Shown here: piece after piece, positions 5,171 through 33,027 of the stretch
Layout of the letters: the number at the start of each line of letters is the position of its first letter
How positions within the stretch are numbered: the first letter of the stretch is position 1
Origin: Gemmatimonadaceae bacterium
Lineage (GTDB): Bacteria; Gemmatimonadota; Gemmatimonadetes; Gemmatimonadales; Gemmatimonadaceae
DNA: 64,000 bases
Reading direction: 5' to 3'
NCBI GenBank assembly: GCA_035606695.1
Contig: DATNEW010000027.1
Coordinates: forward strand, 1-64,000
Program-made: the position numbers and the translations under genes
The notes under the pieces: model-generated
Databases searched by the model: none
Seen by the model: only the letters and a program-made list of their open reading frames with translations
What the model was told of the DNA's origin: nothing

Positions 5171-5183
5171 CGGTGGGCGGTGG

Positions 5184-5273
5184 GCGATGGGCGCTGGGCG
5201 TGAGAACAGCAAAGGGCGACGGGATGATCTCCGTCGCCCTTTGCTGTTTCGCCCAGCGCCCAGCGCCCATCGC
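5184..5273. terminator. Long bipartite hairpin between convergent genes
   Basis: Two nested perfect inverted repeats lie between the M28 peptidase (plus) and the TonB-like receptor (minus). The inner 18-bp arms are at 5205-5222 and 5231-5248 with an 8-nt loop. The outer 17-bp arms are at 5184-5200 and 5257-5273 and consist of GGGCG-type hexamer repeats. The position suggests a bidirectional terminator, though it is much longer than a usual intrinsic terminator and resembles a mobile palindromic repeat. Confidence 0.75.
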
Positions 5274-5274
5274 G

Positions 5275-8200
5275 CTAGAACGTGTACTTCAACTGCAGCT
5301 GCATGGCGTAGTTCGACGCCGGGTTGCGCGTGTTGAACTGCGTGAACGGCGTGAAGTTGAACACCGGCATTGCACCACTGGCGAGCTTGAGCGGCTGGCC
5401 GGCCGTCGGCTGCACCCACGTGCGGCGGGTGAGGAGCGTCGGGCTGTTGCTGCTTCCCTGATCCTGCGCGCCCCAGTTCTTGTTGAGCAGGTTGAGGAAG
5501 TTGAAGATGTCGAGCTGGAGCAGGAAGTTCTGCCCGCGGATGGTCGGGAGCGACTGGCGCACCGACACGTTCATGACCTTGGTCCACGGCGTGCGGCAGG
5601 AGTTGCGCTGCATGATCGTGCCGCGCGCCGAGTTGAGGCACGAGTGCGACGAGATGAACGCATCGAGCGAGTCCGCCTGATTCGCCGGCGTCAGGTTGCC
5701 GTTCTGCGAGAAGCGGATCTGGGTCGTGTCGTGCGCGTTCGTCGGCACGTATACCAGATCGTTCGCGCCGCCGTTGTCGCCGTTCATGTCGCTGCCGTAG
5801 ACGTACTCGAACGGCACGCCGGACTCGGCGAAGAACGTGGTGGAGATGTCCGTCTTCGTCGGCAGCGTGTACGTGCCCGCGACGACGAAGCGGTGCGGCG
5901 CATCCCACTTCGACAGGCCGAGTTGCTGCGAGTCCTGCGGGCCCGAGTAGGAGCGGCCGAACTGCCAGTTCGAGAGCGCGACCGACGACGTCAGATCCCA
6001 CACGTCGTAGGCGTGGCCGTACGTGTAGGCGAACGAGCCCTCGAAGTTCTCGGCGAAGCGCTTCTCGAGCTTGCCGGTGTAGCTGTACTGATAGTCGTGC
6101 GTGGTCGTGTTGCGAATGTCGATCACGTCGCCGAGCGTGACGGTCTGGCCGGCGGCGTTGGTCGAGGTGCGGCGCGTCGGCGCGACGGTGCTGGTGGCCG
6201 ACGTGATGTCGCCGTAGAGCGTGCGGCCGTTGCGGTCGGTGCCGACAGGCGTCGCCGAGATACCAAGATTCTGATAATAGAACTGGTACAACGAGCGCGT
6301 GTACATCGCCTCGACCGTACCAATGACGTTCCACGGCAGCCGGCGATCGTAGCCGACGGTGCTGCGCCACACTTCGGGGAAGTGCAGGTTCGGATCGACC
6401 GTATTGAGCGTCACCGCCGGTGCGGCCGTCGAGTTCTTGCAGTTCGTCGCGATCGGCGAGCCGGCCGCCTGCATGGCGGGAGCGGCGGCGAAGCCCGAGC
6501 ACGTCAGGTTGCCGTAGCCGTTCACGCCCGAGTTGCCGTACAGGTTGCTGAGCCACACGTAGCCCGGCTGCGCCATGAACACGCCCGAACCGCCGCGCAG
6601 CTGATTGACCTGATCACCCGTCACGTCCCAGTTGAAGCCGACGCGCGGCTGCCACTGCATGACGTTCTTCGGCACTTGCGTCGTATTGCGGCCGAAGTTG
6701 GCGTTGGACACGACCGCGTTGGCGTTCGGCGTGTTGAGGAAGCCCGGCATGTCGAGGCGAAGGCCGAACGTGAAGTTCAACGCGTTGCTGGCCTGCCACT
6801 CGTCCGAGACGTACCCACCGAGCGTGCGCGCGCGGAACCGCGCGGCGCCATCGGCGTTGTCGAGCTTGATGCCAAGCGTCGACGTGTTCGGCGTGTCCTT
6901 GATGAGTGAGTCGAGCGTGCCGAACGTGTAGTTGCCGAAGGAATTCTGCGCGAACAGGTTGCGCACGCGATAGAACTCGTTCTTCGTGCCGATCGTGAAC
7001 CGGTGATTGTGCCACGGAATGGTGTAGTTGTCCGTGAGCTCGAAGATGTCCTGGTCGAGCTGGTTGCCCTGCGACGAGTTCTCGGTGCCGGCCGCGAGCT
7101 GGCCCGTGCCACCGTTCGGGTTCTGCACGCGCTGAATGACGACGAACGGCGCATTGATCGGGATGATGCGCTGATCGCGAATGCCCGTGAAGCCCATGAG
7201 CAACTCGTTCGAGTTGCCGTTCGCGAAGTTCGAGTACAACTGCGCGAAGCCGCTGTTCGTCTTCGACTGGAAGTTGTAGCCGTTGTTCGAGAGACTGACG
7301 CGCGTCGCGCTGCGGCTGAAGATGTCCTGCTGCGCGTTGACGTAGTTCCAGCGCGCCATCAGGCGGCTGTTCATCGGCAGGTTGATGAGGTCGAAGCGCG
7401 CGAACATGTTGGTCAGCGGATTGTCGTCGTTGACCTTCTGCGCCGTGCCGGGATCGCTGAAGTTGTACTTCGTCTTGAGGATGTTGACGAAGCTGTCCAC
7501 TGCGGCTTGCGTCGCCGGTGCGGGCTGGGGTGAGCCGGCGCCGATGTACGGGCCGCTGGCCGGCGCCGTCTGCTGCTGGAACTCCGGCGCGATCGAGAAC
7601 AAGAGCTTGTCCTTGATGATCGGGCCGCCGATCCAGAAGCCTTCCTGCTTCTGCGAGAACGGCGAGGCGCGGAGATAGTCGACGTTGCGCTCAAACTTTT
7701 CGTTGCGGAACGCATACGTACCCGAGCCGTGGAATTCATTCGAGCCGCTCTTCGTGACGGCGTTGAGCAGGAAGCCCGAGAAGTACCCCTGACGCACGTC
7801 ATACGGCGACAGCAGCACCTGGTATTCCTTCACCGCCTCGAGCGAGATCTGCTTTGCGCCGGCTTGCGCGCCCGGCTGATTGGTCGAGCCGAGGCCGAAC
7901 AGGTCGCTCGCGATCGCGCCGTCGATCTGGATGGCGTTGAAGCGATTGTTCTGGCCGCCGCCCGAGTTCCCCGGGCCCTTCGTCGAGATCTGCGGTGTGA
8001 GGACGACGAAGTCGGTGAAGTTGCGGTTCAGGGTTGGCAGTCGCGCGATGGCCGAATCGGTCACCGTCGTCGAGACGCCCTTGTGCGACGGTGAGATCAC
8101 CGCGCTGGTGGTCGTCGACACGACTTGCACGCCCTGGAGCTGTGCCGCCTGCTGCGACATGGCGAAGTCGACGCGCAGGTTCTGGCCGAGTGAAAGATTG

Positions 8201-8942: not shown

Positions 8943-9015
<73 letters not shown>

Positions 9016-9057
9016 CTTTTGGTAAGTTGTTGGTAGCGCATAACTCGACGAGCGACG

Positions 9058-9081
9058 ACGGCCACCCGAGAGGGTGGCCGT
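9058..9081 (+). terminator. Terminator-like hairpin after tRNA-Phe (island copy)
   Basis: 10-bp stem ACGGCCACCC / GGGTGGCCGT with a GAGA loop, 42 bp downstream of the tRNA 3' end. A sister hairpin with identical stem lies at the same distance beyond attR (33070-33093). The island therefore supplies the tRNA gene with a replacement terminator. Confidence 0.75.
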
Positions 9082-9091
9082 TCGTGTAGAA

Positions 9092-9110
9092 AAACCCCAA
9101 AAAAACCCCA
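9092..9110 (+). promoter_or_regulatory. Candidate integrase arm-type site (left)
   Basis: AAACCCCAAAAAAACCCCA: two AACCCCA heptamers on an 11-bp pitch, 77 bp inside the left att core. Near-identical copies occur upstream of the integrase gene (25008-25026, opposite strand) and near attR (32847-32865). This pattern fits arm sites bound by the integrase N-terminal domain. The binding itself is inferred. Confidence 0.55.
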
Positions 9111-9127
9111 ATTCGTTCGACGGCTCC

Positions 9128-9613
9128 ATGGACGACGCCAACCCGAACAGAGCGATGACCAACTTTCAGCGGATCGGCGCGATCTCGAACACCCACGTGG
9201 GCGTCGACTTCGAGGCGTTGGCCGTGCTCTCTTTGGAAGCGGCTGGCATCAAGGTTCATCCTCGATTTGCTGTCCCAGTCGGCATCGGGCAACGGAAGAA
9301 GGGGCACACGTTCGACTTCGGGAGCGACGATCCGCCGGTGTTGGTGGAATGCAAGTGTCATCGATGGACAGCGGGCGGCAACGCCCCGAGTGCTAAGCTC
9401 ACGGTCTGGAACGAGGCGATGTATTACTTCTCTCTCGCGCCGGTCAAATACAGGCGAATCTTCTTCGTGCTCCGCGACTACTCCACTCGACGCCGGCAGA
9501 CTCTCGCTGAGCACTATCTCACCCGCTACTCGCACCTCGTACCAGACGGCGTGGAAATATGGGAGTTCGACGAAATCGAGAAGTCGTGTCGAATCCTCAC
9601 GGCCGCCAAATAG
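9128..9613 (+). CDS. PD-(D/E)XK nuclease-like protein
   Basis: 161 aa, first gene of the island. After GVDFEALAVLSLEAAG (a Glu in helix 1), the segment HTFDFGSDDPPVLVECKC gives D63 and E74-x-K76, the arrangement of the PD-(D/E)XK nuclease core; helices and strands follow in the expected order. Likely a small restriction-endonuclease-like or repair nuclease. It could also be a non-catalytic member. The start at 9128 was chosen because the upstream in-frame start at 9074 lies in the tRNA terminator hairpin; 9155 is an alternative. It is convergent with the RES gene, with a 9-bp gap. Confidence 0.5.
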   Translation: MDDANPNRAMTNFQRIGAISNTHVGVDFEALAVLSLEAAGIKVHPRFAVPVGIGQRKKGHTFDFGSDDPPVLVECKCHRWTAGGNAPSAKLTVWNEAMYYFSLAPVKYRRIFFVLRDYSTRRRQTLAEHYLTRYSHLVPDGVEIWEFDEIEKSCRILTAAK

Positions 9614-9622
9614 CTGGGAGCG

Positions 9623-10783
9623 TTAAGGAATGCTGATCGGCTGGTGAGCCACGAGCGACAAGCGTACGGGGGACTCGGGCTCCGTGAATTCAGGCGGCTC
9701 GATATCGTCATAGCCGACGAACAGCGCGATGTTCGCTCCCAACTCTCTCCGAGCACTAGCATAGCGAAGGCCTTGCACGGGCCCTCGCCTCGTACGGAAC
9801 CGGTAGCGAAGATACTCGGTCACCACTTGCGTGGGGACGTACTCGATGTGTTCCCGGTCATCTCGCTCGATCGGTCGACTGATCTCTCTTGCGAACGCGT
9901 GGACGAAGTGGAGCGCGGCTCGCTCGTCCGGCATCGTGTCCGGAGTAAAGATCGTCGGAGATGCAGGAAGTCGGACGAAATCGACAACGCGGACATCCGT
10001 TTCGAGGCGGAGCGTCGCAAGAGTTCCCTGAAGACGTCCCGTCTTCGGGTCAATGCTTTCGGCAATAGCCGTCTCAGGGCTCGTAGCCGCATAGAGCATC
10101 GAAATACCCGCCGGGCTCATGCGGTTGGGCCGGATCGCACGGTCGGCTGGTGGCGGACCAAGCTCCGACAATGTGCTCGGTGAAATTGCCGCGTCGTGGG
10201 GCCGAACTCTGTACAGCATCCTCCCTGCGCGCAGGCGCTTGATCAGCCTCGTACCACGAATCAATCGTCCCAACCGGTCGAGCATATCTTCGGGGCGAAT
10301 CGACTCGTTGTCGGTGGGCCACTGGGCCTTCGGGCGCGGCGGAAAGAAGAGGTACCGCGTCCGATGCTTGATAGCTTCGGCAAACTCTTCCCAGCCGTAC
10401 GTGAGCACATCATAGGGGTGAAGGCTGAAGAAATTCTTCTGGACCCACCCTTTATCGGATACGTGGGCGACGATGTAGTCGAACGCTGCCTCATTCGTTT
10501 CGTCCACATCCAGCTCTTCTTCGAGAACTTCACGCGTGGATTTGAATCCGAAGACGTACTCGCCTCCTTCCACTGGCACCATCTCCGACGCGTCCTCATA
10601 CTCCTGATCCAAGCAGGATTCAACTTCGGCGACAACCGCGTCGGCGTCGGCAGCGATTGCTTGTGATGAAGAACGCCCGCAGAAACTACAGGTCATCGCA
10701 TCCGCGGTCGCGCGGATGAAGGCCTTCAGTGCGCTGTCGGCCACGCACTCGTCGCACATGGCAGCTGAGTCAAACTCGACCAC
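9623..10783 (-). CDS. HEPN/RES-type N-terminal domain plus RES domain protein (toxin-like)
   Basis: 386 aa from a GTG at 10783. The N-terminus has a zinc-finger-like pair (CDEC and CSFCG) and then an alpha-helical region that matches HEPN/RES N-terminal domains by architecture. The C-terminal half (about 205-370) is a RES domain: LYRVRP (invariant Arg), SPETAIAES (invariant Glu) and a Ser near NIALFVGYDD. RES proteins degrade NAD+ or ADP-ribosylate a target and usually act as toxins. No Xre/MbcA-type antitoxin gene is adjacent on the same strand, so this larger form may be controlled in another way, for example as an abortive-infection effector. Confidence 0.75.
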   Translation of the reverse strand: MVEFDSAAMCDECVADSALKAFIRATADAMTCSFCGRSSSQAIAADADAVVAEVESCLDQEYEDASEMVPVEGGEYVFGFKSTREVLEEELDVDETNEAAFDYIVAHVSDKGWVQKNFFSLHPYDVLTYGWEEFAEAIKHRTRYLFFPPRPKAQWPTDNESIRPEDMLDRLGRLIRGTRLIKRLRAGRMLYRVRPHDAAISPSTLSELGPPPADRAIRPNRMSPAGISMLYAATSPETAIAESIDPKTGRLQGTLATLRLETDVRVVDFVRLPASPTIFTPDTMPDERAALHFVHAFAREISRPIERDDREHIEYVPTQVVTEYLRYRFRTRRGPVQGLRYASARRELGANIALFVGYDDIEPPEFTEPESPVRLSLVAHQPISIP

Positions 10784-11402: not shown

Positions 11403-13277
11403 ATGAGACACGCAGTTCGCAGTAACCAGGATCGGCCTACAGGACGGCCGTCCATCCTTGCCACCGCTGCCACGAGCGGGGCCCCGAGGAAACTCGAGCT
11501 TCGGATTTCTGATCCGATTTCGCTGCTCAACGAGATCGCACGGCGCTACGAGTCGCCCGAGCGGATTCTCATGGAGTACGTGGACAACGCGCTCGATGAC
11601 GTCGAAGCGATGTACCGCGCCAACGCCGACGCGTACCCGTACGCCGTAGTGATCGAGATTCTCATCGACTCAAACGCACGGTCTGTCACGATCCGCGACA
11701 ACTGCCGCGGCATGCTGCCCGAAACGTTGGAACGCATTGTTGTTAACGTCGGCGAGTCTCGAAAGCGCGGCCTCACATGGGTCAACGGCCGATTTGGCTT
11801 CGGCGTTCACGCGTTCCGCGCCGCGGCGCAACGAATCCGCTTTCGCACTCGCCATCAGAGTAGCGCGTACTGCGAGCTGGAGCTTGATCGGAACGAGCCG
11901 ACCGGCACCATCACGCCGACGACGTCGGGGAGCTTCCCCACAAACACCGGTACTGGCACCGAAGTGATGGTCGGCCCGTTCGACCCGGAGTGGCAGGATG
12001 TTCTCACGGTGGCCGCGGTAAAGGCCGAGATCGAGCGCCACTTCGAGCATCTGCTTGCGAGGCCAAACTTGTCCATTTTCGTTCGCGACTCGAATGGCAT
12101 CACGGAGCGCTGCATGCCCTTCGACTATGCGAGCGTTGGCGGATACGCCATCACACGTACTCTGTGTGCGGAAGTAGGCGGACGCATCTATCCAGTCGAT
12201 GTCAACCTTCGCGTCGCCAATGTCTCGATCCCTGGGCGCCAAGCGCGCTTTTTCGCTCGGGGCCGGCGCATCAACGAGGTTGCGGAGATCAAGAGCTTCC
12301 TACGAAAGTCGACCCGCCGCAGCGCGGTGTGGGCGCATCCGCAACTTCTCGGCTTCATCGAAGTCGGAGAACTCGCCCGGCCGGTCATCACTCGCGACGA
12401 CTTCGACCGTTCCGCCGGACGCACTGCCCTCTACGACCTTCTGCTAACGATCGAGGCTGAGCTAGCCGAAGCGCTCGACGAGGTGAACGCCGCACAGCGC
12501 GACAACAGCCTCACGCGGCTTGAGGACGTCATGCGTGACGTCCTCAACGACCTCGCTCGCGAGGACAGGCTGCGCCTTCGTACGCAGCTTGTGCCGGGAA
12601 CGGAAACTGGCACTCCGGTTCCCGCTGACACTGGCCCGGTGCCGGACACAACTTACCCGACGGCCGATCCGCCAACGTCAGTCGTGTCGGAGCCGGCAAC
12701 GGTCGAGCCGGCGGAGGTCGAACCTGTCGCTGAACCCACGGTCGACGAGGAGCATCCTGACAGTCCAGACGAGGACGCCGCCGAGCCGGAGACCCCAGAG
12801 AGCGCGACGCCGCCCGCGGCGATCAACGATGACCCTATGGATACGCAGGGTGCGCGACAGCGCAAAACCGGCTTCGATGTGAGTTTCGGTGATTTCCCGG
12901 CCGATGCCGAAGGTCGCATCGTTCGCTCCCGCCTAATCGAGGGCACGATCTATGTGAACACGTCGCACCCGGATTTCCGCGAACGAATGGCGCTTACCCG
13001 CCAAGGCCGGCCGCGCTTCACCGATCGCTTGGCCGCCTACCTCGCGGCCACGGTTGCGATCCACTACAAGGACCAGTTCTACGCCCGGTACGGGCGACAG
13101 CCAGATCGTCGCGATCAGCTGTTCGATGAGATGGTAGCGTTCTCCTGCCGCTTGGAATCGGCGCTACGGCCCCACTTTCCGCTGCTCCAGCGGGAGCTGG
13201 GCGGGAGCCTCGACGAAAGCGATGTGGAATTGATCGCGACGGTCGGTGCACCCGGCGTGGCCGCGCAGGCCTCTTGA
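11403..13277 (+). CDS. GHKL-type ATPase, first gene of the Dnd-adjacent module
   Basis: 624 aa. Residues about 35-250 form a GHKL (gyrase/Hsp90/MutL) ATPase: N-box LMEYVDNALDD (E58, N62), DNCRGM at 99-104 in the place of DxGxG, and the lid glycines GRFGFG at 129-134. A second domain (about 250-400) resembles the MutL-type transducer by position. An acidic, Pro/Thr-rich linker (about 405-480) leads to a C-terminal domain with YVNTSHPDFRERM. A similar segment, DWNVDHPFYERV, is found in the MORC-like ATPase two genes downstream. The ATG at 11403 was chosen over the upstream frame start at 11295, which overlaps the terminator. Followed by the helical gene after 11 bp. No close named family recognised. 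Confidence 0.75.
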   Translation: MRHAVRSNQDRPTGRPSILATAATSGAPRKLELRISDPISLLNEIARRYESPERILMEYVDNALDDVEAMYRANADAYPYAVVIEILIDSNARSVTIRDNCRGMLPETLERIVVNVGESRKRGLTWVNGRFGFGVHAFRAAAQRIRFRTRHQSSAYCELELDRNEPTGTITPTTSGSFPTNTGTGTEVMVGPFDPEWQDVLTVAAVKAEIERHFEHLLARPNLSIFVRDSNGITERCMPFDYASVGGYAITRTLCAEVGGRIYPVDVNLRVANVSIPGRQARFFARGRRINEVAEIKSFLRKSTRRSAVWAHPQLLGFIEVGELARPVITRDDFDRSAGRTALYDLLLTIEAELAEALDEVNAAQRDNSLTRLEDVMRDVLNDLAREDRLRLRTQLVPGTETGTPVPADTGPVPDTTYPTADPPTSVVSEPATVEPAEVEPVAEPTVDEEHPDSPDEDAAEPETPESATPPAAINDDPMDTQGARQRKTGFDVSFGDFPADAEGRIVRSRLIEGTIYVNTSHPDFRERMALTRQGRPRFTDRLAAYLAATVAIHYKDQFYARYGRQPDRRDQLFDEMVAFSCRLESALRPHFPLLQRELGGSLDESDVELIATVGAPGVAAQAS

Positions 13278-13288
13278 CGAGGAGATCG

Positions 13289-14212
13289 ATGATGAAGAAG
13301 AGCAACACTGAGACTGCTGGCCGCCGTACGCGGCCAGCAGTCACGCTCGAAGCCGATCTAGGTACGCTGATCGAACGCCTCGGTCCATTGAACAACAGTT
13401 GGCGCTCAGCCTCGGCTTCCGAGAAGGTGCTTCTCTTGTGGGACATTGGTGACGCGCTCGAAGCGGCTGCACCTGGCGGTAACGACACCCTGCTGTGGGA
13501 GGTTCAGCGCCGCAGCTATATCACTCGCTCACTGCTTCGCTACGCACTCATCGTTCGTCGTGGCTGGGCGAAACGTGACGATCTTGAGCGGCTAACGCGC
13601 GGCCTCTGGAGCTACACGGTCTTCCGCGAGGCGCTTCCCTTTCTGAAGGGCGATCGCGAAGGCATCGACACGGCTACGTTCGACCGCGTAGGCGCCGCGC
13701 TGCGGCAGCAGGATTCAGGCGCGGCGATCAAATACCTGAAGGGTCTTAAGCGGGAGCATATCGGCCGTACCCAGGCGCGCGGGTTGAGCGCAGAGCGGGC
13801 ACGGCCACTCGCAACGAAGTTTCGCCTGGCCGTCGGCCGGCTTGCCGACATCGCGCGTGGCTCCACGACGGAGGTCACTAGCGATACAGCCGCTCTCGCG
13901 GCGGCGCAGTGGGCTGGCGGGGTGGCTCTGACGGCGGCTTCGGCGGAGGCGCTTTCTCCAGAGCCCGCGCCACCAACTGCAACCGTCTCCACGCCGGAGG
14001 TTCGTGAAATAGTGGAGATCCTCCGGGAAGTCGCCACCGAGTCGCGCAGCGGGCAAACCGCCTTCCGCAAATTGGCAGGCGCTCAGTTCCTGATGGAAAC
14101 ATCCGAGTTGTTGAATGCCATCCGGACACCCGGCTCCCTCGCAGCGTGGCGGGATCGCCACGCAGGTGAATCCCTGCGCGCGCCGCACGTCCCCTCCCTT
14201 CGCTCCAACTAG
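13289..14212 (+). CDS. Unknown helical protein between two GHKL ATPases
   Basis: 307 aa, mostly charged helices. An N-terminal half with SASEKVLLLWDIGDAL, SLLRYALIVRRGW and SYTVFREALPFLKGD looks like a helical bundle. An Ala/Pro-rich linker (about 210-240) and a short helical C-terminus (VREIVEILREVATES) follow. No catalytic motif or known domain recognised. Start at ATG 13289 (a second ATG follows at 13292) with GAGGAG 4-10 bp upstream; the TTG at 13274 overlaps the previous stop and is less likely. It ends 6 bp before the next start, so the three genes form one operon. It probably serves as a specificity or bridging subunit, by inference from position only. Confidence 0.7.
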   Translation: MMKKSNTETAGRRTRPAVTLEADLGTLIERLGPLNNSWRSASASEKVLLLWDIGDALEAAAPGGNDTLLWEVQRRSYITRSLLRYALIVRRGWAKRDDLERLTRGLWSYTVFREALPFLKGDREGIDTATFDRVGAALRQQDSGAAIKYLKGLKREHIGRTQARGLSAERARPLATKFRLAVGRLADIARGSTTEVTSDTAALAAAQWAGGVALTAASAEALSPEPAPPTATVSTPEVREIVEILREVATESRSGQTAFRKLAGAQFLMETSELLNAIRTPGSLAAWRDRHAGESLRAPHVPSLRSN

Positions 14213-14218
14213 CGACCG

Positions 14219-15751
14219 ATGACCAAGAACCGATCAGGCACGAGCAAGGTCGCAGAGCGCGATCCACTGGACAACCGACCGAACGCGCGCAAGCTCCTGG
14301 ACTCGCTACGGTACCTCGGCTACGACAACTACTACGCGATCAGCGACATCGTGGATAACGCGTTGGACGCCGAGGCACGAAACGTCTGGATCAATGTTCA
14401 TCGCGAGACCGACACCGATATCATGATTGATATCGCTGATGACGGTATCGGGATGAACGAGGCTGTTCTTGATCAAGCATCACGCCTTGGCAGCGAGGTC
14501 CAGCGCAATGCCTCGACTGACTTGGGCCGGTTTGGCATGGGGCTGGTAACGGCGTCACTGAGTCTGGGCAGGCGTTTGACCATCGTGACTCGCGCGAAAA
14601 AAGGACCCATCTTAGCGAACATCACAGACGTTGACACGATGACGAAGAGGAACGCCTTCGTCCGCGACTTCTTCGGAGAGGCCAGCCAGCCGCTGTTAAA
14701 CTTGTATCATGAGTACCTGGGCAATGCCCAAAGCGGTACGGTAATTCGAATCAGCAAGAGCGACGGCTTCAAGCGCCGGTACGTGGGGGCATTCGAAGGC
14801 ACCTTGAGCAAACAGCTCGGCCAAACGTATCGAATGTTCATCCGCGCCGGCAAACACTTCTATGTCAACGGCACCGAAGTTCCAATCCACGATCCGTTGT
14901 GGATAGAGGATAAGCCATCAGCAAGGGTGTACAGCGATGAAGAATTCGCCATCAAGTACATGGATGAAAGGACCGGAGAAATCGTTACGGACATGGTCCG
15001 GGCCCGCCTGGTAATCCTACCGGACCACGGTAGCCGTAAGGAGAATGGCAAGAAGGGCTACAGGGCCGAGAAGTCGGGCTTCTACGTGATGCGCAACAAC
15101 CGGGAGATTGCTGAGGCTCAACTTCTTGGCCTTGCAAATCTCAGCCGACATCCTGACCTAATTCGGTTCAGGGGCGAGCTATTCATCAGTGGGAAGCTCG
15201 ACGACGCCTTCGGTATCGAATTCACAAAGCGAGATGTCAAGCCGACTCAAAGCGTCAAAGACCAGTTGGATGCCGAACTGGGATCCACCATTCGCTCCCT
15301 ACGAACACAGATTCAGCAAAAGGAAGCGAAGCAAGAAGGGGAGGGCGTAAACCACGAGACGTCTGAACAGTTTATCAACCGTCAGTCGAGCTTACTGATT
15401 CGACCGCCGGCAAAAGAACAACCCGGCGGCGACTCGGCGCCAGGAGAATCTGGGAGTTCGACGCCGCTTGGAACAGTGAAGTTCGGTATTCGCAACTTCG
15501 GACGGGAGGGGCCTGTCTACGCCGCCGAGCAGCGCGGCAGAACAACATTTATTGATTGGAACGTCGATCATCCGTTCTATGAACGAGTGGTTCTCACGGC
15601 GCGAAACGATCGAGAGAAGCTCAACTCAGTGGACGCATTAATTTTTTGCATTGCTGCAGCGGAGCTCCGCGTTTTCGACGACGACCATCGCGACTTCGTC
15701 GATAGCTGGAAGGCGATCCTGTCCTCGAACCTTCGTATTCTCTTGTCGTAA
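14219..15751 (+). CDS. MORC-like GHKL ATPase
   Basis: 510 aa. The ATPase domain occupies about residues 25-230: N-box AISDIVDNALDAEA (N47, with Asp at the position where MutL and MORC proteins usually have the catalytic Glu), ADDGIGM at 73-79, and LGRFGMGLVTASLSLG at 102-117. The layout matches MORC-type prokaryotic GHKL proteins, which were linked to restriction systems by earlier comparative genomics. A Gln/Lys-rich linker leads to a C-terminal domain with FIDWNVDHPFYERVVLTA, similar to the C-terminus of the first GHKL gene. Its stop is 14 bp from the dndA stop on the other strand. Confidence 0.8.
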   Translation: MTKNRSGTSKVAERDPLDNRPNARKLLDSLRYLGYDNYYAISDIVDNALDAEARNVWINVHRETDTDIMIDIADDGIGMNEAVLDQASRLGSEVQRNASTDLGRFGMGLVTASLSLGRRLTIVTRAKKGPILANITDVDTMTKRNAFVRDFFGEASQPLLNLYHEYLGNAQSGTVIRISKSDGFKRRYVGAFEGTLSKQLGQTYRMFIRAGKHFYVNGTEVPIHDPLWIEDKPSARVYSDEEFAIKYMDERTGEIVTDMVRARLVILPDHGSRKENGKKGYRAEKSGFYVMRNNREIAEAQLLGLANLSRHPDLIRFRGELFISGKLDDAFGIEFTKRDVKPTQSVKDQLDAELGSTIRSLRTQIQQKEAKQEGEGVNHETSEQFINRQSSLLIRPPAKEQPGGDSAPGESGSSTPLGTVKFGIRNFGREGPVYAAEQRGRTTFIDWNVDHPFYERVVLTARNDREKLNSVDALIFCIAAAELRVFDDDHRDFVDSWKAILSSNLRILLS

Positions 15752-15765
15752 AGGCGGGCGATTCC

Positions 15766-16944
15766 CTACTTCGACGCCGGTTCGGTGAGACTGACCCTGC
15801 GGAGGTGGTGCACCTCGCCGGCGAAGGCTTCCACGGCACGATCGATATCGTCCAAGGTCGTGAACCGCCCGAGGCCAAGGCGAAAGGCGTTCCTCGCTCT
15901 CCAGCCATCACCGAACATCGCGAGTAAAACCGGTGACGTCTTGACGTCGTGTGCGGCGCAGGCACTAGATGCCGAGAAGCTCACCTGATCGCGCATCGTC
16001 CGCATTAGTGCATGCGGCTCAACATCGCGGATGGAAATCGACAGATTGTTCGGCAGACGCTCCGTCGGATGGCCGTTAAGAGCAAGATCTGGAGCCGCTG
16101 CCTGAAGACCAGCAAACAACCTGTCGCGCAGAGGCTGGAGCCGTGCTGTGTCGTCTGACCGAACCAAACGCACGCGAGCGAATGCAGCGCCGAGCCCGAC
16201 GATGAGGGGGACATTGAGCGTACCTGGACGCAAACCGCGCTCTTGTCCGCCGCCGAAAAGCAGGGCGGCCAGTCGAATTCTCGGACGGCGACTCCGGATG
16301 TAAAGCGCGCCGATTCCCTTAGGACCGTACGCCTTGTGCGCGGATAGGCTTGCCAGTCCTAGCCGAAGTCGATTCACATCGATCGGAGCGTAAGCAGCAG
16401 CTTGCGCGAGATCGCTATGAAAAAGGACTCCTCGCGACTCGCAGGCCGCGCCGATCGCTTCAAGCGGCTGGACCGTTCCCACCTCGTTGTTCGCCGCCAT
16501 TACGGACACGAGCAACGTGTCTTCCTCAATCGCTGCTGCGACCTCTTCAGCTTTGACCTGCCCCGTTTCATCTACACCGACATACGTGACTCGATGCCCC
16601 TCGCGCTCCAAAATCCGAAACGGCTCTGTGATGGAGGGATGTTCAATCGCGCAGCTTACGAAGTGTCGCGGACGGTCAGCTGCTCGAGCAATACCGAGGA
16701 TGGCCAGATTATTCGCCTCTGTGCAGCTCCCGGTGAAGATGATCTCTTCCGGGCGAGCTCCGATCAGTTCAGCAATCTGCTGACGCGATCGTTCGACGGC
16801 AGTAGCGGCGTCATTGCCGTAGACGTGACTAACGCTGGATGGATTGCCGTACCTCGTCGTGAAGAACGGCAGCATCGCCTCCAACACTTCCGGATCAATC
16901 GGTGTCGTGGCGTTGTGATCCAGGTATACCGGCGCGCTCGTCAT
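15766..16944 (-). CDS. dndA: Cysteine desulfurase for DNA phosphorothioation
   Basis: 392-aa class V aminotransferase fold. YLDHNATTP opens the protein, the PLP lysine is in SLSAHKAYGPKG, and the persulfide-forming cysteine loop is SASSACAAHDVKTSP. It supplies sulfur, and assembles the Fe-S cluster, for DndC. Assignment as DndA rather than housekeeping IscS rests on its place as last gene of the dnd operon, 2 bp after dndE. In many bacteria dndA is divergent or replaced by an unlinked IscS, so this B-C-D-E-A order is compact. Confidence 0.9.
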   Translation of the reverse strand: MTSAPVYLDHNATTPIDPEVLEAMLPFFTTRYGNPSSVSHVYGNDAATAVERSRQQIAELIGARPEEIIFTGSCTEANNLAILGIARAADRPRHFVSCAIEHPSITEPFRILEREGHRVTYVGVDETGQVKAEEVAAAIEEDTLLVSVMAANNEVGTVQPLEAIGAACESRGVLFHSDLAQAAAYAPIDVNRLRLGLASLSAHKAYGPKGIGALYIRSRRPRIRLAALLFGGGQERGLRPGTLNVPLIVGLGAAFARVRLVRSDDTARLQPLRDRLFAGLQAAAPDLALNGHPTERLPNNLSISIRDVEPHALMRTMRDQVSFSASSACAAHDVKTSPVLLAMFGDGWRARNAFRLGLGRFTTLDDIDRAVEAFAGEVHHLRRVSLTEPASK

Positions 16945-16946
16945 GT

Positions 16947-17318
16947 TCAGCCTACTCGTGCCAGACGAGCAATCTCAAGCGGGTTGCGGCCTTTCACGGA
17001 TAGCGTGCCAACGCCACGGTGGATGTGACCTCGGAATCGATCAACTAATTCTTCGTTCGTCAGCGGCTCGTCCGAGGTTGGCTCCTCAACGAACCGAAGG
17101 AGTGCGGTGAACAGCACTTCATATTCACCGGTAAGGGTGTACGCATTGAATTCTGAGCCGTCTTCATCCGGGGCGCCCTGAGTGCCGATGGGCCCTTCTT
17201 CCATGGAAAGCATCGCAGCGGCCCGGCAAAGAAGGTTCGGCGTCAGACCGGTGTGTTGCTTCAGGTAGCGAAGCTTGCTGGTAGCCTCGCTGGATATCCG
17301 GAGTTTACTAAACTGCAT
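16947..17318 (-). CDS. dndE: DNA sulfur modification protein DndE
   Basis: 123 aa, typical length. Begins MQFSKLRISSEATSKL, continues with KQHTGLTPNLLCRAA (a ribbon-helix-helix-like helix pair), and ends with RFRGHIHRGVGTLSVKG, the conserved basic region of DndE. DndE tetramers bind nicked DNA and are needed for phosphorothioation with DndC and DndD. The ATG at 17318 overlaps the end of dndD by 11 bp. An upstream extension to 17444 is a dndD shadow. Confidence 0.9.
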   Translation of the reverse strand: MQFSKLRISSEATSKLRYLKQHTGLTPNLLCRAAAMLSMEEGPIGTQGAPDEDGSEFNAYTLTGEYEVLFTALLRFVEEPTSDEPLTNEELVDRFRGHIHRGVGTLSVKGRNPLEIARLARVG

Positions 17319-19359
17319 CGACCACCTCGCGCGGTGCGTTCGTGCCACGTGATCCGGCGGAGTCCCAGAAGTAGCCTGTTGCCACACGTGTGTGACCGGC
17401 CACGGGATCATATTCCAGATGATATGAGTGAGACACACTCGCACTCAGTGACGCCAACAGGGGAGCATCAACTTCGGTATCGGTTGACAGCATGATCACT
17501 TGATGGCTCACCGATGGGAAGTAGCGCTGCACCAGGTTGGATCGGTGATCGGAATCGAGCCTAGCAAGCGGTGTATCGATAATCATTGGCAGCGCCCTTC
17601 CACTCGTCCGCGCCAAAGCCCAAAGAATCGCGATGGCGTAGACTTGCTTTTCGCCCGCTGACAGATCGGCCTTTGGAATGGCGCGCCCGGCCTTGTCTAT
17701 CAGCGTGACGCCGAACGATTCCTCGTCGATCCGGATGTCAGCGACGACGTCGCCTTTTCGCGCTAGACGGTTGAAGCACTGAACAAACTCGCCCCGAAGC
17801 TGGCCGAGCTTGTGAGTTAGTAGTCGATGTTCGTACTCAGCCAGCACGCGCGATGCTCTGATCGCCAGACTAGCACGTTGTTCAGCGGCCGACAGCTCGG
17901 TCTGTTCGCGTAGGAGTCGCTCGCGTTCGCGCTCCAAGGTGGCCTGCTGGGCTCGGAGTTTCTTTAGATCTTCTTCGCGCCGCCGCAACGTCGCCTCGGT
18001 CGCGCCAACGCGTTGCTCAGCGTGACGCAAGTCGTCGAGCAGAACGCTGCTTTCCCCGCCATCCGCTCGCAGGAGCAAGGCGCGAAAATCCCGCTCACGT
18101 GCGTAGAGAGCCTCCAGTTCATTTGCTAGGAACTCAAGCCGTGGACGAATCGTGGTATCGGCCTCGTCAAGCCAAGCAACCAATGCGGCGCCGTCGCCAA
18201 CGGATTCAAAGGCACGGCCTGCCAGCGCCGCAGTCTCGGCACCCAGGGCCGCCCACGTCTTGAGGAACGACGTTAGATCCTTCCAGTGCGCCGCTGCCCA
18301 GTCAGCAGAGCGCTCCTCGCGACCCGTCTTCCGCCACTCCTTTAGCGCGGCCGTCAGTGCCGAGACCATCTGCTTTCTATGGGAGGCCTCAGCGAAAGCC
18401 GCTGACTCCTGCAGCGCCTGGCGGAACGCCCGTGCGAGACGCGGTGCAACGGCAAACGGAAGGAGTCCCCCGGCAAGCTCTCGCAGGTCCGCCTCACGCC
18501 GGCCAATAACGCGCTTTACCTCATCGGCCTCGCTTGCAAGCTGAGTGCGTCTTACGGCTAGTTCTCCACCCTCGGCAACGAACCGACGACGGGCATGCTC
18601 GGCCACCCGCGCTTGAGAGTCTCGATCCGCCGAAATCTGTCCCAGGTCCTCCGTCGCCTCTGCAATCTGATCTTCCAGTAAGGCAAGATCACGCACGATG
18701 CCTTCAAGACGCGTGGCGATTGCTTGGTGCTGTCCCTGTTCACGCCGAGCTAGAAAGAGTCCAAGGTCCGTGCGAAGGCGGGAGATCAGCTCAACGCCAA
18801 GGAGGCCGCGGACAGCCAACGCTAGATGCTCTTCGTCGTGATCGCCGTCAGCGATTTCCTGAATCTTCTCGCCGTCGAAGAAAAACAGTTGCGAGACGCC
18901 AGGAGGAATCAGATCGTGCAGAAACAGATGCCATTCGTCGCGCGGAACGTCTTCGACGATGACACCGTCCTTCTCCAGAAGAAGAGATTCGGAGACGCTG
19001 CGGCCGCGCGCCGTCCAGCTCCGCCGAACTCTGTAGTTGCGAAGAACACCGTCTTCGGCGTAGCTGAACTCAAGACCGACGGCGGCGCCGTGGGGTGTCA
19101 TCTGTTGAGCCACCGGCCGATGAATCCGACTCCGGAGATACTCATCATATTGCGCCTGGCCGACGCGAGAGCCCAACGCACGCCGCCCATATAGCGCCAG
19201 ACGCACAGCCTCTAGAAGCGTCGTCTTGCCGACGCCATTCTTCCCACCGATCAGAACGATGGGATGCGTTACGCCTCGACGTACACGCGGAGCAAGGTCG
19301 AGTTCTAGCCTGCCATGATAAAGCCCGAAGTTCTCCAAAAGAATGCTTCGAAGGATCAC
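17308..19359 (-). CDS. dndD: DNA sulfur modification ATPase DndD
   Basis: 683-aa SMC/Rad50-like ATPase. Walker A GGKNGVGKTT (38-47) lies near the N-terminus, with a long coiled-coil middle section (for example LRRREEDLKKLRAQQATLE). The signature LSAGEKQVYAIAI and Walker B LPMIIDTPLARLD come near the C-terminus, followed by the D-loop and H-loop region (VIMLSTDTEV). DndD ATPase activity is thought to nick or remodel DNA for sulfur insertion. The start overlaps the dndC stop by 4 bp, so the genes are translationally coupled. Confidence 0.93.
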   Translation of the reverse strand: MILRSILLENFGLYHGRLELDLAPRVRRGVTHPIVLIGGKNGVGKTTLLEAVRLALYGRRALGSRVGQAQYDEYLRSRIHRPVAQQMTPHGAAVGLEFSYAEDGVLRNYRVRRSWTARGRSVSESLLLEKDGVIVEDVPRDEWHLFLHDLIPPGVSQLFFFDGEKIQEIADGDHDEEHLALAVRGLLGVELISRLRTDLGLFLARREQGQHQAIATRLEGIVRDLALLEDQIAEATEDLGQISADRDSQARVAEHARRRFVAEGGELAVRRTQLASEADEVKRVIGRREADLRELAGGLLPFAVAPRLARAFRQALQESAAFAEASHRKQMVSALTAALKEWRKTGREERSADWAAAHWKDLTSFLKTWAALGAETAALAGRAFESVGDGAALVAWLDEADTTIRPRLEFLANELEALYARERDFRALLLRADGGESSVLLDDLRHAEQRVGATEATLRRREEDLKKLRAQQATLERERERLLREQTELSAAEQRASLAIRASRVLAEYEHRLLTHKLGQLRGEFVQCFNRLARKGDVVADIRIDEESFGVTLIDKAGRAIPKADLSAGEKQVYAIAILWALARTSGRALPMIIDTPLARLDSDHRSNLVQRYFPSVSHQVIMLSTDTEVDAPLLASLSASVSHSYHLEYDPVAGHTRVATGYFWDSAGSRGTNAPREVVDAV

Positions 19360-20840
19360 TGGCCATCCTCCGGACTCGATGCCGTCAGCAAATCCAAGTG
19401 AGCACGGCGCTCCGCGACCACCTCATGCTCATCTCGCCATTCCTGCTTCAGTACATCCTCAATGCGAGAATGAACGGCATGTCGGCGCTTGAGTCCGTGA
19501 GCGGCTCGTTCCACATCGATAAGCCGAACAATCAGCTCTGTCGGGACGGAATGCTCGTCGCAGATGCTCTTAAGGAGCTGCCCATCCTGGCTCGTAAAGG
19601 TGACGTGGTCTTCCATCACCCACGCGAGGTCGCGTCCTAAAACCTCGCGCACGATGGCTGGAACGGAATCTTCCCAGTCCCCACGCTCGCTCCTCCATAT
19701 CCGTCGTATCTCGTGCAGCTCCGCTTCGTGGATCAAAGTTGGAGCTTCCTCTAGCGGCGCTTCCTTCGCGACTCGGACTTGCGTTTCCAAGAGGCGCCGT
19801 AGGAAATCCTTGCACACCGCGAGGGTATATGGACCCGGAACTGGTTTCGCGGTGTCGCCGATGAAAGCGACGTGGCCGCTCTTGCGACGAAAATCCCGGT
19901 ATAGGCGCTTCTTGTCGGGATCCTGCGTTGCGGAAAGGAGATCTCGAAACTCCAGCAGCGGCTCAAGCCAATCCTCGCCTGAGTCGACCATTGCCTCCAT
20001 TGCCGAATCTTTCTCCACGACGGTGCACACCCAACACCCGAAGCGCGAGTTGCCGCAGGTCGGCGTCGTCGTGTCTACAACCAAAGGGCACTCGCCCGCT
20101 TGAGCGCTCTTGTACATGGCGACGAGATCGCGGTTGTCGTTGCCCCACGGCGACGGCACCTGCAGCAAGTACGTCCAAACGTCATCCACCGAAAACGCCT
20201 CAATTGGCGGATAGACGAATGCGTTCAGCAAGCTCGAATGACGAGCGAGCCGTGAGCCCTTGATGCGGTGCAGAGACATAACCTGCGCTCGCGTTGCGCT
20301 TTCCGCAGAGCGAACACCTAGGACCATCACAACCTCTCCGAACTCTGCAACGCGAGCCCGGATGAACTCGTTTGCGGGTTCGATCTTCAGACGCTCTGTG
20401 CACCAGCGAAAACGCTTGGACGGCGCCGGGTATCCCTTTCCAATGAGGTTTACCCAAAAACTGCGGTCGACGGGGGGCGTTACCTTGTGTGCGCGAAACG
20501 GAAGGCTCTGCTGCTGTGCGGCAATGTTGATGCGTTCAAGTGTCGTATCGATGTAATGGACGATTACCGGCGTCTCTACAAGCGTATCGGAGCTGATGAC
20601 GTAAACAGGCTTCTGACGGGCCTCGACGGGTAACTCGGATAGTGCGTACCATATGAGCTGGAGGGCACAGGTAGAGTCCTTGCCGCCGCTGTAGCCGATT
20701 ACCCACGGCCTTGCGTCCGCTTGGTAGATCGCTCGGATCTCCTCATGAAGTGACGCGATCGGCCGAGTATCAAAAACGGACTTCGGCTTGCCGCGCTGAG
20801 TCACCGGCGCAGGAACATCGATGGTTGGCAGGTTACGCAT
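19356..20840 (-). CDS. dndC: DNA sulfur modification protein DndC (PAPS-reductase-like ATP pyrophosphatase)
   Basis: 494 aa. The PP-loop VIGYSGGKDSTCALQ (motif at 51-57) activates the DNA backbone phosphate with ATP. A cysteine cluster CPLV...TPTCGNSRFGCWVC supplies ligands for the 4Fe-4S centre. DndC is the core sulfurtransferase that acts with DndD and DndE. The start at ATG 20840 overlaps the dndB stop by 8 bp. Length is within the usual range for DndC. Confidence 0.94.
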   Translation of the reverse strand: MRNLPTIDVPAPVTQRGKPKSVFDTRPIASLHEEIRAIYQADARPWVIGYSGGKDSTCALQLIWYALSELPVEARQKPVYVISSDTLVETPVIVHYIDTTLERINIAAQQQSLPFRAHKVTPPVDRSFWVNLIGKGYPAPSKRFRWCTERLKIEPANEFIRARVAEFGEVVMVLGVRSAESATRAQVMSLHRIKGSRLARHSSLLNAFVYPPIEAFSVDDVWTYLLQVPSPWGNDNRDLVAMYKSAQAGECPLVVDTTTPTCGNSRFGCWVCTVVEKDSAMEAMVDSGEDWLEPLLEFRDLLSATQDPDKKRLYRDFRRKSGHVAFIGDTAKPVPGPYTLAVCKDFLRRLLETQVRVAKEAPLEEAPTLIHEAELHEIRRIWRSERGDWEDSVPAIVREVLGRDLAWVMEDHVTFTSQDGQLLKSICDEHSVPTELIVRLIDVERAAHGLKRRHAVHSRIEDVLKQEWRDEHEVVAERRAHLDLLTASSPEDGQ

Positions 20841-21942
20841 TGACCATCACCTCTGATGCGTCGCAAGTGTGCATGCGCTCCAAGCGCTCCCCTTCCGTAG
20901 TGAGTGGTAGCCCGAAATGTTGAAGAATGATGTTGCTGACGAGGATAACGTTGGTGCGGGCCTTGTTGACTCGTCCACCGATAAGGGCACGACCCTCCCA
21001 CAGATCGACGTTGCTTCGCGACCAGTCGAGTTGACGCAGCGCTTCCAACCGAGTGTCCCAGGCTTCGGGGTAGAGGGCGACGAGTTGAGCGCCCGCTATA
21101 GCTATCGCCTGTAATGCAATCCCGTGCGCGTGCACGTAGTCGCGTCGCAGATCCGCGGCGGCGATGCGGCGCTGGGCAACGCTTTGCCAGTCGGGCATGG
21201 CCTTCGCCACTGCGTTCCAGAAACGCACGGAGTGTTCTTCGTCCGCTTGTGTGAGATCCGCGCCCTTCGGCTTACCGATGAACTCCGCCGTGGCTTGGTA
21301 GATAGCGCTCAATGTGAACAGCTTGAGCGACCGATTCGAAATCGTTGTTTTTTCGCGCTCGGTGAAGTCTCGGAAAAGCGGCACGGCACTCACCACGCGG
21401 CGGACTAGCCGAGACATCGGATCACGGTGATCGTACAGCACGCCGATGGATTTCGTTGGTTTGACGGCATGGATGTTCAGGTCGGCGAACATCTGCTGCG
21501 ATCTAAGGAGGCCGCGATCCGCGAAAACAACGACAGAGATCGTTTCGTCACCGAGATAAGGGCGATCGCGCAATGCCTCCTCGATCGCGGCCCGACGGTG
21601 CTGACCATCGTTGATGAGGATGGTCGCCGTCATGGCGATACGTAGACGGCCGACCGACCTCAACGGGCCATCGCCTGCGAGCGGCTCGAAGTCCAGGTCA
21701 CCGTCAACTGAGGCGCAGAGCGACGAGAGGATGTATTCCTTGGGGTTGTCCGCGATGTAACGCGCGATCGCGGGAACACGCGCGCGGTTGAGCAGTCTCT
21801 GCGCTCGAAGGTCGGCGGGAAGTGTCTCGTCGTCGAACCGAAAAAGCCGCGGTATCAGCTTTAGGGGACACATGGCGACGTAGTAGGCCGTTCCGGCCTG
21901 CACGCCACGGATAGCCGTGAACTCGTAGGTGTAGGGCTCCAT
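20833..21942 (-). CDS. dndB: DNA sulfur modification protein DndB (DGQHR domain)
   Basis: 369 aa. The DGQHR motif is at 112-116 (ILINDGQHRRAAIEEAL), with the flanking family pattern RVPAIARYIADNPKEYI. DndB represses the dnd operon and modulates modification frequency in studied systems. It is the first gene of the operon. Its leader carries a predicted promoter and three 22-bp-spaced repeats (21986-22061). Confidence 0.93.
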   Translation of the reverse strand: MEPYTYEFTAIRGVQAGTAYYVAMCPLKLIPRLFRFDDETLPADLRAQRLLNRARVPAIARYIADNPKEYILSSLCASVDGDLDFEPLAGDGPLRSVGRLRIAMTATILINDGQHRRAAIEEALRDRPYLGDETISVVVFADRGLLRSQQMFADLNIHAVKPTKSIGVLYDHRDPMSRLVRRVVSAVPLFRDFTEREKTTISNRSLKLFTLSAIYQATAEFIGKPKGADLTQADEEHSVRFWNAVAKAMPDWQSVAQRRIAAADLRRDYVHAHGIALQAIAIAGAQLVALYPEAWDTRLEALRQLDWSRSNVDLWEGRALIGGRVNKARTNVILVSNIILQHFGLPLTTEGERLERMHTCDASEVMVNA

Positions 21943-23761: not shown

Positions 23762-24922
23762 CTATGCATTCGCCGTCACCACAGCTCGCGAGGGAGACAG
23801 CAAATCACTGAGCCGTTGGCTCGCGCGCTCCTGCATCCCTGGCACCACGTGCGAGTAGATATCCAACGTAAGCGTGATGCTCGCGTGACCAAGCCGCTCC
23901 TGAACGACCTTCGGGTGCTCACCACTGGCCATGAGCAGCGTAGCGTGCGTGTGCCGAAGGTCGTATAGCCGAAGGTCCCGAAGACCGGCAGCCTTGAGGA
24001 TCGGTTTGAAGTGCCTGCCGGTGATGTTGTGTAGGTCCGCGAAGCCGCCCTCTTCGTTGGCGAAGATCAGTCCGCGATCGCGATACGCTCCGCCGAGTCG
24101 AAGACGCCACTCGACTTGGGTTCGACGATGGCGTTGTAGCGCGTCCATGGCTTCTGGCGCGAGCGGGATAACCCGCCGTCCACGCGGCGTCTTGGTATCC
24201 TCCAGAAACGCCTCTTGGCCCGGCACCCGAACGAGCGAGCGCCGCACACGCAGAACACTGCCATCAAGGTCGGACCACAGTAAGCCGAGTGCTTCGCTCG
24301 GCCGCAGGCCCGAGTAAACCATGAGGATGAAGAACGCTTCCCACTTGTCGCCCAACACCGCGTCGCAAAACCGCCGCGCCTCGTCAGGGCCGAAGACCAC
24401 GCGCTCGGTGTGCTTCTTCCGAGGCAGTTCGGCATCCCGTGCGACGTTGCGCGGCACCTTGCCGAGCTTCACCGCTTTGGTCAGACATGCGCGGATGGCC
24501 CCATGCGCCATCGCGACTGTTCGCGGTCCCAGCCCCGCCGCGACAAGATCGTTCACATAGTGCTGAACGTCGGCCGCGGTGAGCTCGGAGAGTTTCCTAG
24601 CCCTGAGTTCCGGGGTCAAGTAACGCCTAAAGATTCCCTCGTAGTCGGCGCGTGTTCTCGGGGCCATGCGGTTGCACCATGTGGTCAGCCACTCGTCCAC
24701 CCATGCGCCCAGCGCCTGCCGGCTCAACACCACAGCGTCGTTCTGCTCGCGTCGCCGGACGGCAGCATTCAGGTAACGCTCCGCATCCGCCTTCGAACCG
24801 TAGATGATCTTGCTCAGACGGCGCCGCTGCTTTCCCTCGGCGCCGAAGGAGAGGCGAACACGCCAGCGGCCTGGACCCCAGGGTTCGACACTTCCCCGTC
24901 TGCGACTACTTCTGCCTGCCAT
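23762..24922 (-). CDS. Tyrosine recombinase (island integrase)
   Basis: 386 aa from the ATG at 24922, preceded by AAGGAG at 7-bp spacing. An Arm/AP2-like DNA-binding N-terminus (PGRWRVRLSFGAEGKQRRR) is followed by a SAM-like core-binding domain (about 75-160) and the catalytic domain. The catalytic residues are all visible: Arg in MVYSGLRPSEALGL, His-x-x-Arg in LYDLRHTHATLL, His in LGHASI and the nucleophile Tyr in LDIYSHV. It presumably recombines the tRNA-Phe att cores. It lies mid-island, 8 kb from attR and 15 kb from attL. Confidence 0.95.
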   Translation of the reverse strand: MAGRSSRRRGSVEPWGPGRWRVRLSFGAEGKQRRRLSKIIYGSKADAERYLNAAVRRREQNDAVVLSRQALGAWVDEWLTTWCNRMAPRTRADYEGIFRRYLTPELRARKLSELTAADVQHYVNDLVAAGLGPRTVAMAHGAIRACLTKAVKLGKVPRNVARDAELPRKKHTERVVFGPDEARRFCDAVLGDKWEAFFILMVYSGLRPSEALGLLWSDLDGSVLRVRRSLVRVPGQEAFLEDTKTPRGRRVIPLAPEAMDALQRHRRTQVEWRLRLGGAYRDRGLIFANEEGGFADLHNITGRHFKPILKAAGLRDLRLYDLRHTHATLLMASGEHPKVVQERLGHASITLTLDIYSHVVPGMQERASQRLSDLLSPSRAVVTANA

Positions 24923-25007
24923 GATAACGCTCCTTGAACCAGACCCTCGAACGATTAGGGCAGTCGCGGGAAAAGTAAAGGAACTCTCATTCAAAAACTC
25001 TCAAAAC

Positions 25008-28832: not shown

Positions 28833-29819
28833 ATGGCCAAGGCCGATCAGGTCAAAGCGTTAATTCGTACTCACGCGGAAGGGGATGACGAGCGCTTTTA
28901 TGCGATCGCCATGCAGGTGGCGGCCGCCGCAGCTCGCCAGGGTCACGGCAAGTTTGCACAGGAACTCAGGGATCTCATAGACCAAGCGCGCGCGACTCGT
29001 GCAGCCGCACGAGGACAACAAACGCGCGCTGTTCCGATTGTTCAGCCGCGGGGCGAGTTGGCCGGATTGCTGTCGGCCAATTATCCAAAGACTCGGTTCG
29101 CTGATATGACACTGGGCGAGGGCCTTCGGGTCCGACTCGACCGAGTGTTGGTGGAACAGCGCGGTCGCGCCCGGATTCGAGAGCATGGACTTTCGCCAAT
29201 GCGAAAGCTGCTTCTCATTGGACCGCCGGGAACCGGCAAGACGATGACTGCCGCCGCTCTCGCCGGCGAGTTGGGCTTGCCGCTCTTTTCGATTCAGCTC
29301 GATGCGCTGATTACGAAATTTCTCGGAGAAACCGCAGCCAAACTTCGGTTGATCTTTGACGCCATTCGTGAAACACGCGCGGTCTATCTCTTTGATGAAT
29401 TCGATGCGCTAGGCGCCGAACGAGGCGCGAAGAACGAGGTCGGCGAGATCCGGCGGGTTCTCAACTCGTTCCTCCAGTTCATGGAGCAAGATGATTCCGA
29501 CAGCCTGATCATCGCCGCCACCAACCATCCTCGGTTGTTAGATCGCGCGCTGCTCCGTCGATTTGATGCTGTACTTCGATACGAGTTGCCGAGTCACGCA
29601 GAGGCAGAGCGAGTAGTCCAAGACAGACTCGCCTTGCTGGATACTTCCACGATATCATGGCAAGCTATTGTTGATGCCTCTGCTGGCCTGAGCCACGCCG
29701 AGCTTTCGCGGGCGGCACAGCAAGCCGCGAAGCACGCAATTCTTGAGCACCGATCGGCTGTTTGGACTGACGAGCTTGTACAAGCGCTCCATGATCGGCG
29801 ATCCGCACACAGCGAATAA
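28833..29819 (+). CDS. ietA: AAA ATPase of an IetAS-type defence pair
   Basis: 328 aa. An N-terminal helical region (about 1-85) is followed by a classical AAA module: Walker A LIGPPGTGKT (128-137), Walker B VYLFDEFDAL (about 187-196), sensor AATNHP and arginine finger LLRRFDAV. Pairing with a subtilisin-like protease 14 bp downstream is the hallmark of IetAS, a two-gene antiphage system reported from systematic defence screens. The ATPase presumably senses or remodels a phage target and controls the protease. Assignment rests on domain pairing. Confidence 0.8.
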   Translation: MAKADQVKALIRTHAEGDDERFYAIAMQVAAAAARQGHGKFAQELRDLIDQARATRAAARGQQTRAVPIVQPRGELAGLLSANYPKTRFADMTLGEGLRVRLDRVLVEQRGRARIREHGLSPMRKLLLIGPPGTGKTMTAAALAGELGLPLFSIQLDALITKFLGETAAKLRLIFDAIRETRAVYLFDEFDALGAERGAKNEVGEIRRVLNSFLQFMEQDDSDSLIIAATNHPRLLDRALLRRFDAVLRYELPSHAEAERVVQDRLALLDTSTISWQAIVDASAGLSHAELSRAAQQAAKHAILEHRSAVWTDELVQALHDRRSAHSE

Positions 29820-32985: not shown

Positions 32986-33027
32986 CTGAAAATCCGCGTG
33001 TCGGCGGTTCGATTCCGTCCCTAGCCA
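32986..33027 (+). repeat. attR: 42-bp tRNA-Phe 3' fragment
   Basis: Identical over 42 bp to 8974-9015 of the intact tRNA gene. The 5' half of the tRNA is absent, so this is an attachment-site remnant, not a second gene. It marks the right edge of the island. Confidence 0.95.

Follow-up and report, generated by a model that had tools for sequence, protein, structure and literature searches.

The established role of the DndABCDE family is to mark host DNA with phosphorothioate (PT), and the known partners of PT modification are DndFGH, DndI, Pbe and Ssp. What restricts remains open in many genomes in which the modification module lacks DndFGH; decoupling of this module from DndFGH has been argued to be frequent among PT systems (Rakesh et al., PMC10853773). 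The locus described here raises that question in a Gemmatimonadota genome, where a dnd operon lies tail to tail with an operon of two GHKL ATPases and an orphan helical protein: are these three genes (the triplet) the partner of the dnd operon, or only its neighbours?

The dnd operon and its island

The window, which is the whole stretch of DNA analysed, comprises 64,000 nt (positions 1–64000 of contig C27) of a 5.9-Mb genome. The locus sits on a 24.0-kb integrative island in tRNA-Phe (8943–33027). The tRNA gene (8943–9016; ARAGORN) contains the left attachment repeat (8974–9015, plus strand), of which a 42-bp exact direct copy at 32986–33027 (plus strand) forms the right attachment repeat. 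A tyrosine integrase (23762–24994, minus strand; Phage_integrase, 2.7e-17) and a primase-like gene (25436–27946) are also encoded on the island.

The dnd operon occupies the minus strand and consists of dndB (20833–21942; TIGR03233, 469 bits, cut-off 328), the sulfurtransferase gene dndC (19356–20840; TIGR03183, 580 bits, cut-off 290.4), dndD for an ABC-type ATPase (17308–19359; TIGR03185, 506 bits, cut-off 245.85), dndE (16947–17324; TIGR03184, 96 bits, cut-off 71.85) and the cysteine desulfurase gene dndA (15766–16944). The product of the last has PADLOC DndA as its best PADLOC match (8e-142) and scores 434 bits against TIGR03235, slightly below the DndA equivalog cut-off of 480, and is classified from these matches as a DndA/IscS-class desulfurase. 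With DndC, DndD and DndE all present and intact, the operon is by its family matches a Dnd PT modification system. The stop codons of dndA and of the last triplet gene are 14 bp apart. Coordinates and family matches thus confirm the arrangement that a first, sequence-only reading of the window had proposed, namely dndB-C-D-E-A on the minus strand facing a GHKL operon tail to tail across a 14-bp gap.

The usual partners were searched for at different scales. Across all 5.9 Mb of the genome, DptF (TIGR03238) and DptH (TIGR03237) have no match, and the absence of DndFGH homologues claimed by the sequence-only reading is borne out for these two. The DptG model (TIGR03236) found nothing in the genome either, yet it was silent in every control too. 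Open reading frames of the PbeABCD type (CxC ABC ATPase plus HKD helicase) are not found beside dnd within the window. No DUF262 (GmrSD_N) protein is encoded in the window, the GmrSD_N matches of its own genome being confined to another contig (C44).

The island carries further genes of defence type. Together with dnd it encodes an IetA-like AAA ATPase (28833–29819) and an IetS-like subtilase (29834–32380), a pair of a type known from defence, which makes this a defence island with unrelated systems side by side. Between the tRNA and the triplet lie a gene for a possible toxin with HEPN_RES_NTD1 and RES domains (9623–10783, minus strand) and one for a small protein (9074–9613, plus strand) whose D-x(n)-E-C-K pattern hints at a PD-(D/E)xK nuclease. 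Family and PDB searches gave no match for the small protein, which could be a candidate effector acting in trans.

The GHKL1–MID–GHKL2 triplet

The triplet lies on the plus strand and encodes GHKL1 (11403–13277; 624 residues), MID (13289–14212; 307 residues) and GHKL2 (14219–15751; 510 residues). GHKL1 consists of a GHKL and a transducer domain followed by a long helix, a disordered linker and a C-terminal domain. It matches HATPase_c_3 (E = 3.5e-8), and the PDB matches of a profile built from four homologues are Hsp90s (best 9e-6). Its AF2 model resembles Hsp90/GyrB over the GHKL and transducer domains (E = 4e-14), a likeness that extends to the overall fold only, given the modest confidence of the model (pLDDT 61). 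The C-terminal part has no match to Hsp90. In the alignment, the N-box (E58-x-x-x-N62) and the glycine loop (G2, GRFGFG) are kept in the homologues that cover these positions. From profiles and model together, GHKL1 is assigned to the Hsp90-like GHKL ATPases, with GHKL and transducer domains and with Hsp90 as its closest match.

GHKL2 matches HATPase_c_3 more strongly (E = 2e-23), and its profile finds MORC3, MORC4 and MORC2 first in the PDB and MutL after them. Its N-box, in which the Asn is N47, carries Asp43 at the position where Glu is the usual residue, and where Glu is found in the homologue from the acidobacterial genome G422 described below. With the GHKL motifs present, it is classified on its profile matches as a MORC/MutL-like ATPase, and the operon thus combines two different GHKL classes. 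MID had no match in searches of Pfam, NCBIfam, PADLOC and PDB sequences; its AF2 model (pLDDT 75.7, pTM 0.48) is all-helical and found no match in a fold search of the PDB. The identities given by the sequence-only reading, a GHKL ATPase, a helical protein and a MORC-like GHKL ATPase, agree with profiles and models, which further place the first among Hsp90-like proteins. Domain and profile searches of the three proteins found no recognisable nuclease or PT-binding domain.

One named system is approached by sequence. GHKL2 matches the MzaB model of MZA at E = 3e-28, and the triplet might on this ground be taken for a divergent member of such a system; we consider this very improbable, with a score of 98 bits that falls far under the cut-off of 850 and with no match of either remaining triplet protein to any Mza model.

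Relatives of the triplet and their linkage to dnd

A scan of 84,980 species genomes with short exact peptide patterns, which detect close relatives only, returned one further triplet locus, in a Blastocatellia MAG (L027). The gene order is that of the window, with overlapping gene borders or gaps of a few base pairs, and identities to the window are 57% for GHKL1 (over the aligned part), 46% for MID and 64% for GHKL2. The GHKL1 gene is interrupted by a 4.2-kb transposon (3301–7477) with 26-bp inverted ends and a target duplication of about 8 bp, which contains a transposase-like gene and a full GmrSD gene (DUF262+HNH) as passenger. The latter was considered as a second linked nuclease and rejected, the inverted ends and duplicated target site marking it as transposon cargo. 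The contig is 12.4 kb long and lacks dnd; the dnd copies of this MAG sit on other contigs, and an attempt to join the dnd contig to the triplet contig failed, the two having no common 18-mer. A second dnd locus of this MAG (L035, 4522–11825; G395:C34) carries, all on one strand, dndC, dndD and genes for a DndE–HerA fusion, a Methyltransf_35 protein and a different GHKL ATPase, and is a separate case of a GHKL protein beside dnd.

Searching 396 Acidobacteriota genomes with a profile brought in a second genome, G422 (locus L037), the only one of its order, so that no further loci could be drawn from that order. Here GHKL2', GHKL1 (45%), MID (30%) and a gene with a GmrSD_N domain form one minus-strand operon, which ends 52 bp from the second of two plus-strand genes that follow dndCDE; the two gene sets again lie tail to tail. 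The GmrSD/SspE-like product retains DGLQR and DHL...N...N nuclease-type motifs. On a viral contig (L028), GHKL1 (40%) is cut by the contig end and there is no DndC on the record; neither MID nor GHKL2 occurs among the viral contigs searched, and a search of 72,556 plasmids found neither GHKL1 nor MID. Weak matches of P0001/P0002 in Gemmatimonadota were judged to be chance or unrelated Hsp90-like genes. GHKL1–MID–GHKL2 is a real, rare unit, and its conservation across phyla excludes chance as its origin.

Proteins like GHKL2 also occur elsewhere. On three plasmids (L023, L024 and L025) their neighbours are genes for an SF2 helicase, a protein with an EcoRII N-domain, HNH, Dcm and Vsr. On a Roseivivax plasmid (L026, 4421–10647), genes for two MORC-like GHKL ATPases precede one for a DruA-domain protein, adjoining a RES/Xre toxin–antitoxin pair, and this arrangement is possibly an undescribed defence operon. 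A related N-x-x-H-P-x-[FY] motif, read by eye, is found in the domains with which GHKL1 and GHKL2 end, and also in the Roseivivax GHKL pair.

Co-occurrence with dnd bears on whether the triplet is a paraMORC/Hsp90 pair that acts against invaders as a stand-alone system and whose adjacency to dnd reflects only the gathering of defence genes on islands. This explanation is possible, if on the unlikely side. It would account for the IetAS-like pair and the HEPN-RES gene on the same island, for the absence of dnd from the contigs of L027 and L028, and for the occurrence of MORC-like relatives of GHKL2 in restriction–modification contexts that lack dnd (the EcoRII-type/Dcm/Vsr plasmids and the Roseivivax operon); the tendency of defence islands to collect unrelated systems is the main ground for caution about coupling. 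However, DndC is rare, being found in 1–3% of sampled genomes, yet all three cellular genomes with GHKL1 encode it. Among the 396 Acidobacteriota genomes, 13 encode DndC at E <= 1e-40 (above the cut-off in 12) and two have GHKL1, both of which encode DndC (hypergeometric p = 0.001, computed without the window's genome, the discovery case). Adjacency of module and dnd within 10 kb has a chance probability of about 0.003; GHKL1 and dnd are adjacent in G422, and in the Blastocatellia MAG they lie on different contigs, so that adjacency there is undecidable from the assembly. In Gemmatimonadota, four of 395 genomes have DndC, of which only the window's has GHKL1, the other dnd loci having other neighbours. 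The triplet is thus not, as would have spoken against the sequence-only reading, found mostly away from dnd: two of the three cellular genomes with GHKL1 have it next to dnd, while in the third the two lie on separate contigs, in a small sample of four loci in all, with direct linkage at two, one of them the starting point. Recurrence of the tail-to-tail linkage in a genome of another phylum also argues against a stand-alone system.

The DndC tree bears on the same point. The window falls within a clade (98/99 support) with four alphaproteobacterial plasmid systems, the closest DndC being that of Rhizobium sp. NXC14 (74%). In these four relatives the dnd operon neighbours a CxC/Pbe-type module, and in Rhizobium and Methylobacterium the two lie tail to tail. 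The position that a Pbe-type module fills in the closest dnd relatives is taken by the triplet here, and the partner seems, from this comparison, to have been exchanged, in a way that a stand-alone system would not lead one to expect. The G422 DndC lies outside this clade, which indicates that the GHKL module is coupled to dnd operons of two distinct lineages. That closely related dnd operons occur with either a Pbe or a GHKL module, and the GHKL module with two dnd lineages, is stronger evidence of functional coupling than mere inheritance of a neighbourhood would give.

A possible Dnd partner and its comparison with known systems

Comparative genomics supports the coupling of the triplet to dnd. 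We consider it rather probable that the triplet is an undescribed sensor/effector partner of Dnd, exchanged for the usual Pbe or DndFGH and working as a PT-gated two-ATPase DNA clamp; we infer complex formation, DNA clamping, PT sensing and the outcome. In this model MID would bridge GHKL1 and GHKL2 into a clamp that is driven by ATP and closes on DNA. A PT mark close by on host DNA would keep the clamp from closing or make it open again; invading DNA, which lacks the mark, would remain clamped, and replication or transcription would be blocked as by Pbe, without cutting. Versions with a nuclease gene, such as the GmrSD/SspE-like gene of G422, may hand the clamped DNA over for cleavage, and the G422 version probably cuts DNA. 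Either outcome has a precedent among known PT partners, the block in Pbe and the cut in DndI. The window version has no recognisable nuclease, which makes it likelier there that DNA is blocked without being cut, or that a nuclease acts in trans. The sequence-only reading had called the triplet a PT-dependent restriction or antiphage module. Conservation across phyla, linkage to dnd in a second, distant genome and occupation of the place of Pbe speak for such a module, and the lack of a recognisable nuclease leaves restriction in the strict sense uncertain. A more specific version is a doubtful proposition: an Hsp90-like and a MORC-like ATPase in one heteromeric, PT-gated clamp, which would recognise invading DNA by its missing phosphorothioates and entrap rather than cut it. 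Such a clamp would be the bacterial equivalent of MORC silencing, directed by a mark in the DNA backbone.

Hsp90- and MORC-type GHKL proteins remodel protein–DNA complexes, and the triplet could instead aid modification, as a chaperone or topology manager for DndCDE. The window triplet, with its lack of a nuclease, would suit such a helper. However, most sampled dnd operons do without the triplet, close relatives included, and in G422 the operon further includes a nuclease gene of GmrSD type; we regard a helper role as improbable. Under the favoured reading, that of an effector partner, a rare GHKL pair that replaces Pbe next to a dnd operon of close kinship is a directly testable new partner, and, if the role is true, MORC/Hsp90-type clamps would be tied to an epigenetic mark in bacteria.

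Identity of the triplet with an already named Dnd partner, which would have removed its novelty, is not indicated by comparison with the Pbe and Ssp sets, and no curated cut-off of a named partner was passed. Within the open-access literature (subscription journals and preprints lay outside this scope) no link between a GHKL ATPase and Dnd was found, and the main text of the main survey of dnd neighbourhoods mentions neither GHKL nor MORC. DndFGH/DndI systems use PT as a self mark together with an NTPase-driven effector; DndI nicks unmodified DNA, and stimulated ATP hydrolysis releases it from PT DNA (PMC11662687). The triplet shares no domains with them, and DptF and DptH are the members for which the genome-wide search was negative. 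SspE of the Ssp systems is described as a member of the GmrSD family (PMC12137116), and a GmrSD_N (DUF262) protein is present in the G422 operon, whereas the operon of the window has none. Prokaryotic MORC and paraMORC proteins occur in restriction–modification neighbourhoods (Iyer 2008, PMC2292703), which the contexts of the three EcoRII-type plasmids resemble and to which GHKL2 is linked by its MORC-like character. Most of the published neighbourhoods (about 70%) include an SF2 helicase, along with nucleases (PMC2292703), whereas the locus of the window lacks a helicase and combines dnd with MID and an Hsp90-like GHKL protein. Dnd–PbeABCD has the same kind of dnd operon with a partner module beside it, and Pbe blocks replication without cutting and is ineffective against PT-modified virus (PMC6459918). 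The module of the window differs in that the CxC ABC ATPase, the HKD helicase and a PbeB/D-like gene are lacking and two GHKL ATPases and MID are present.
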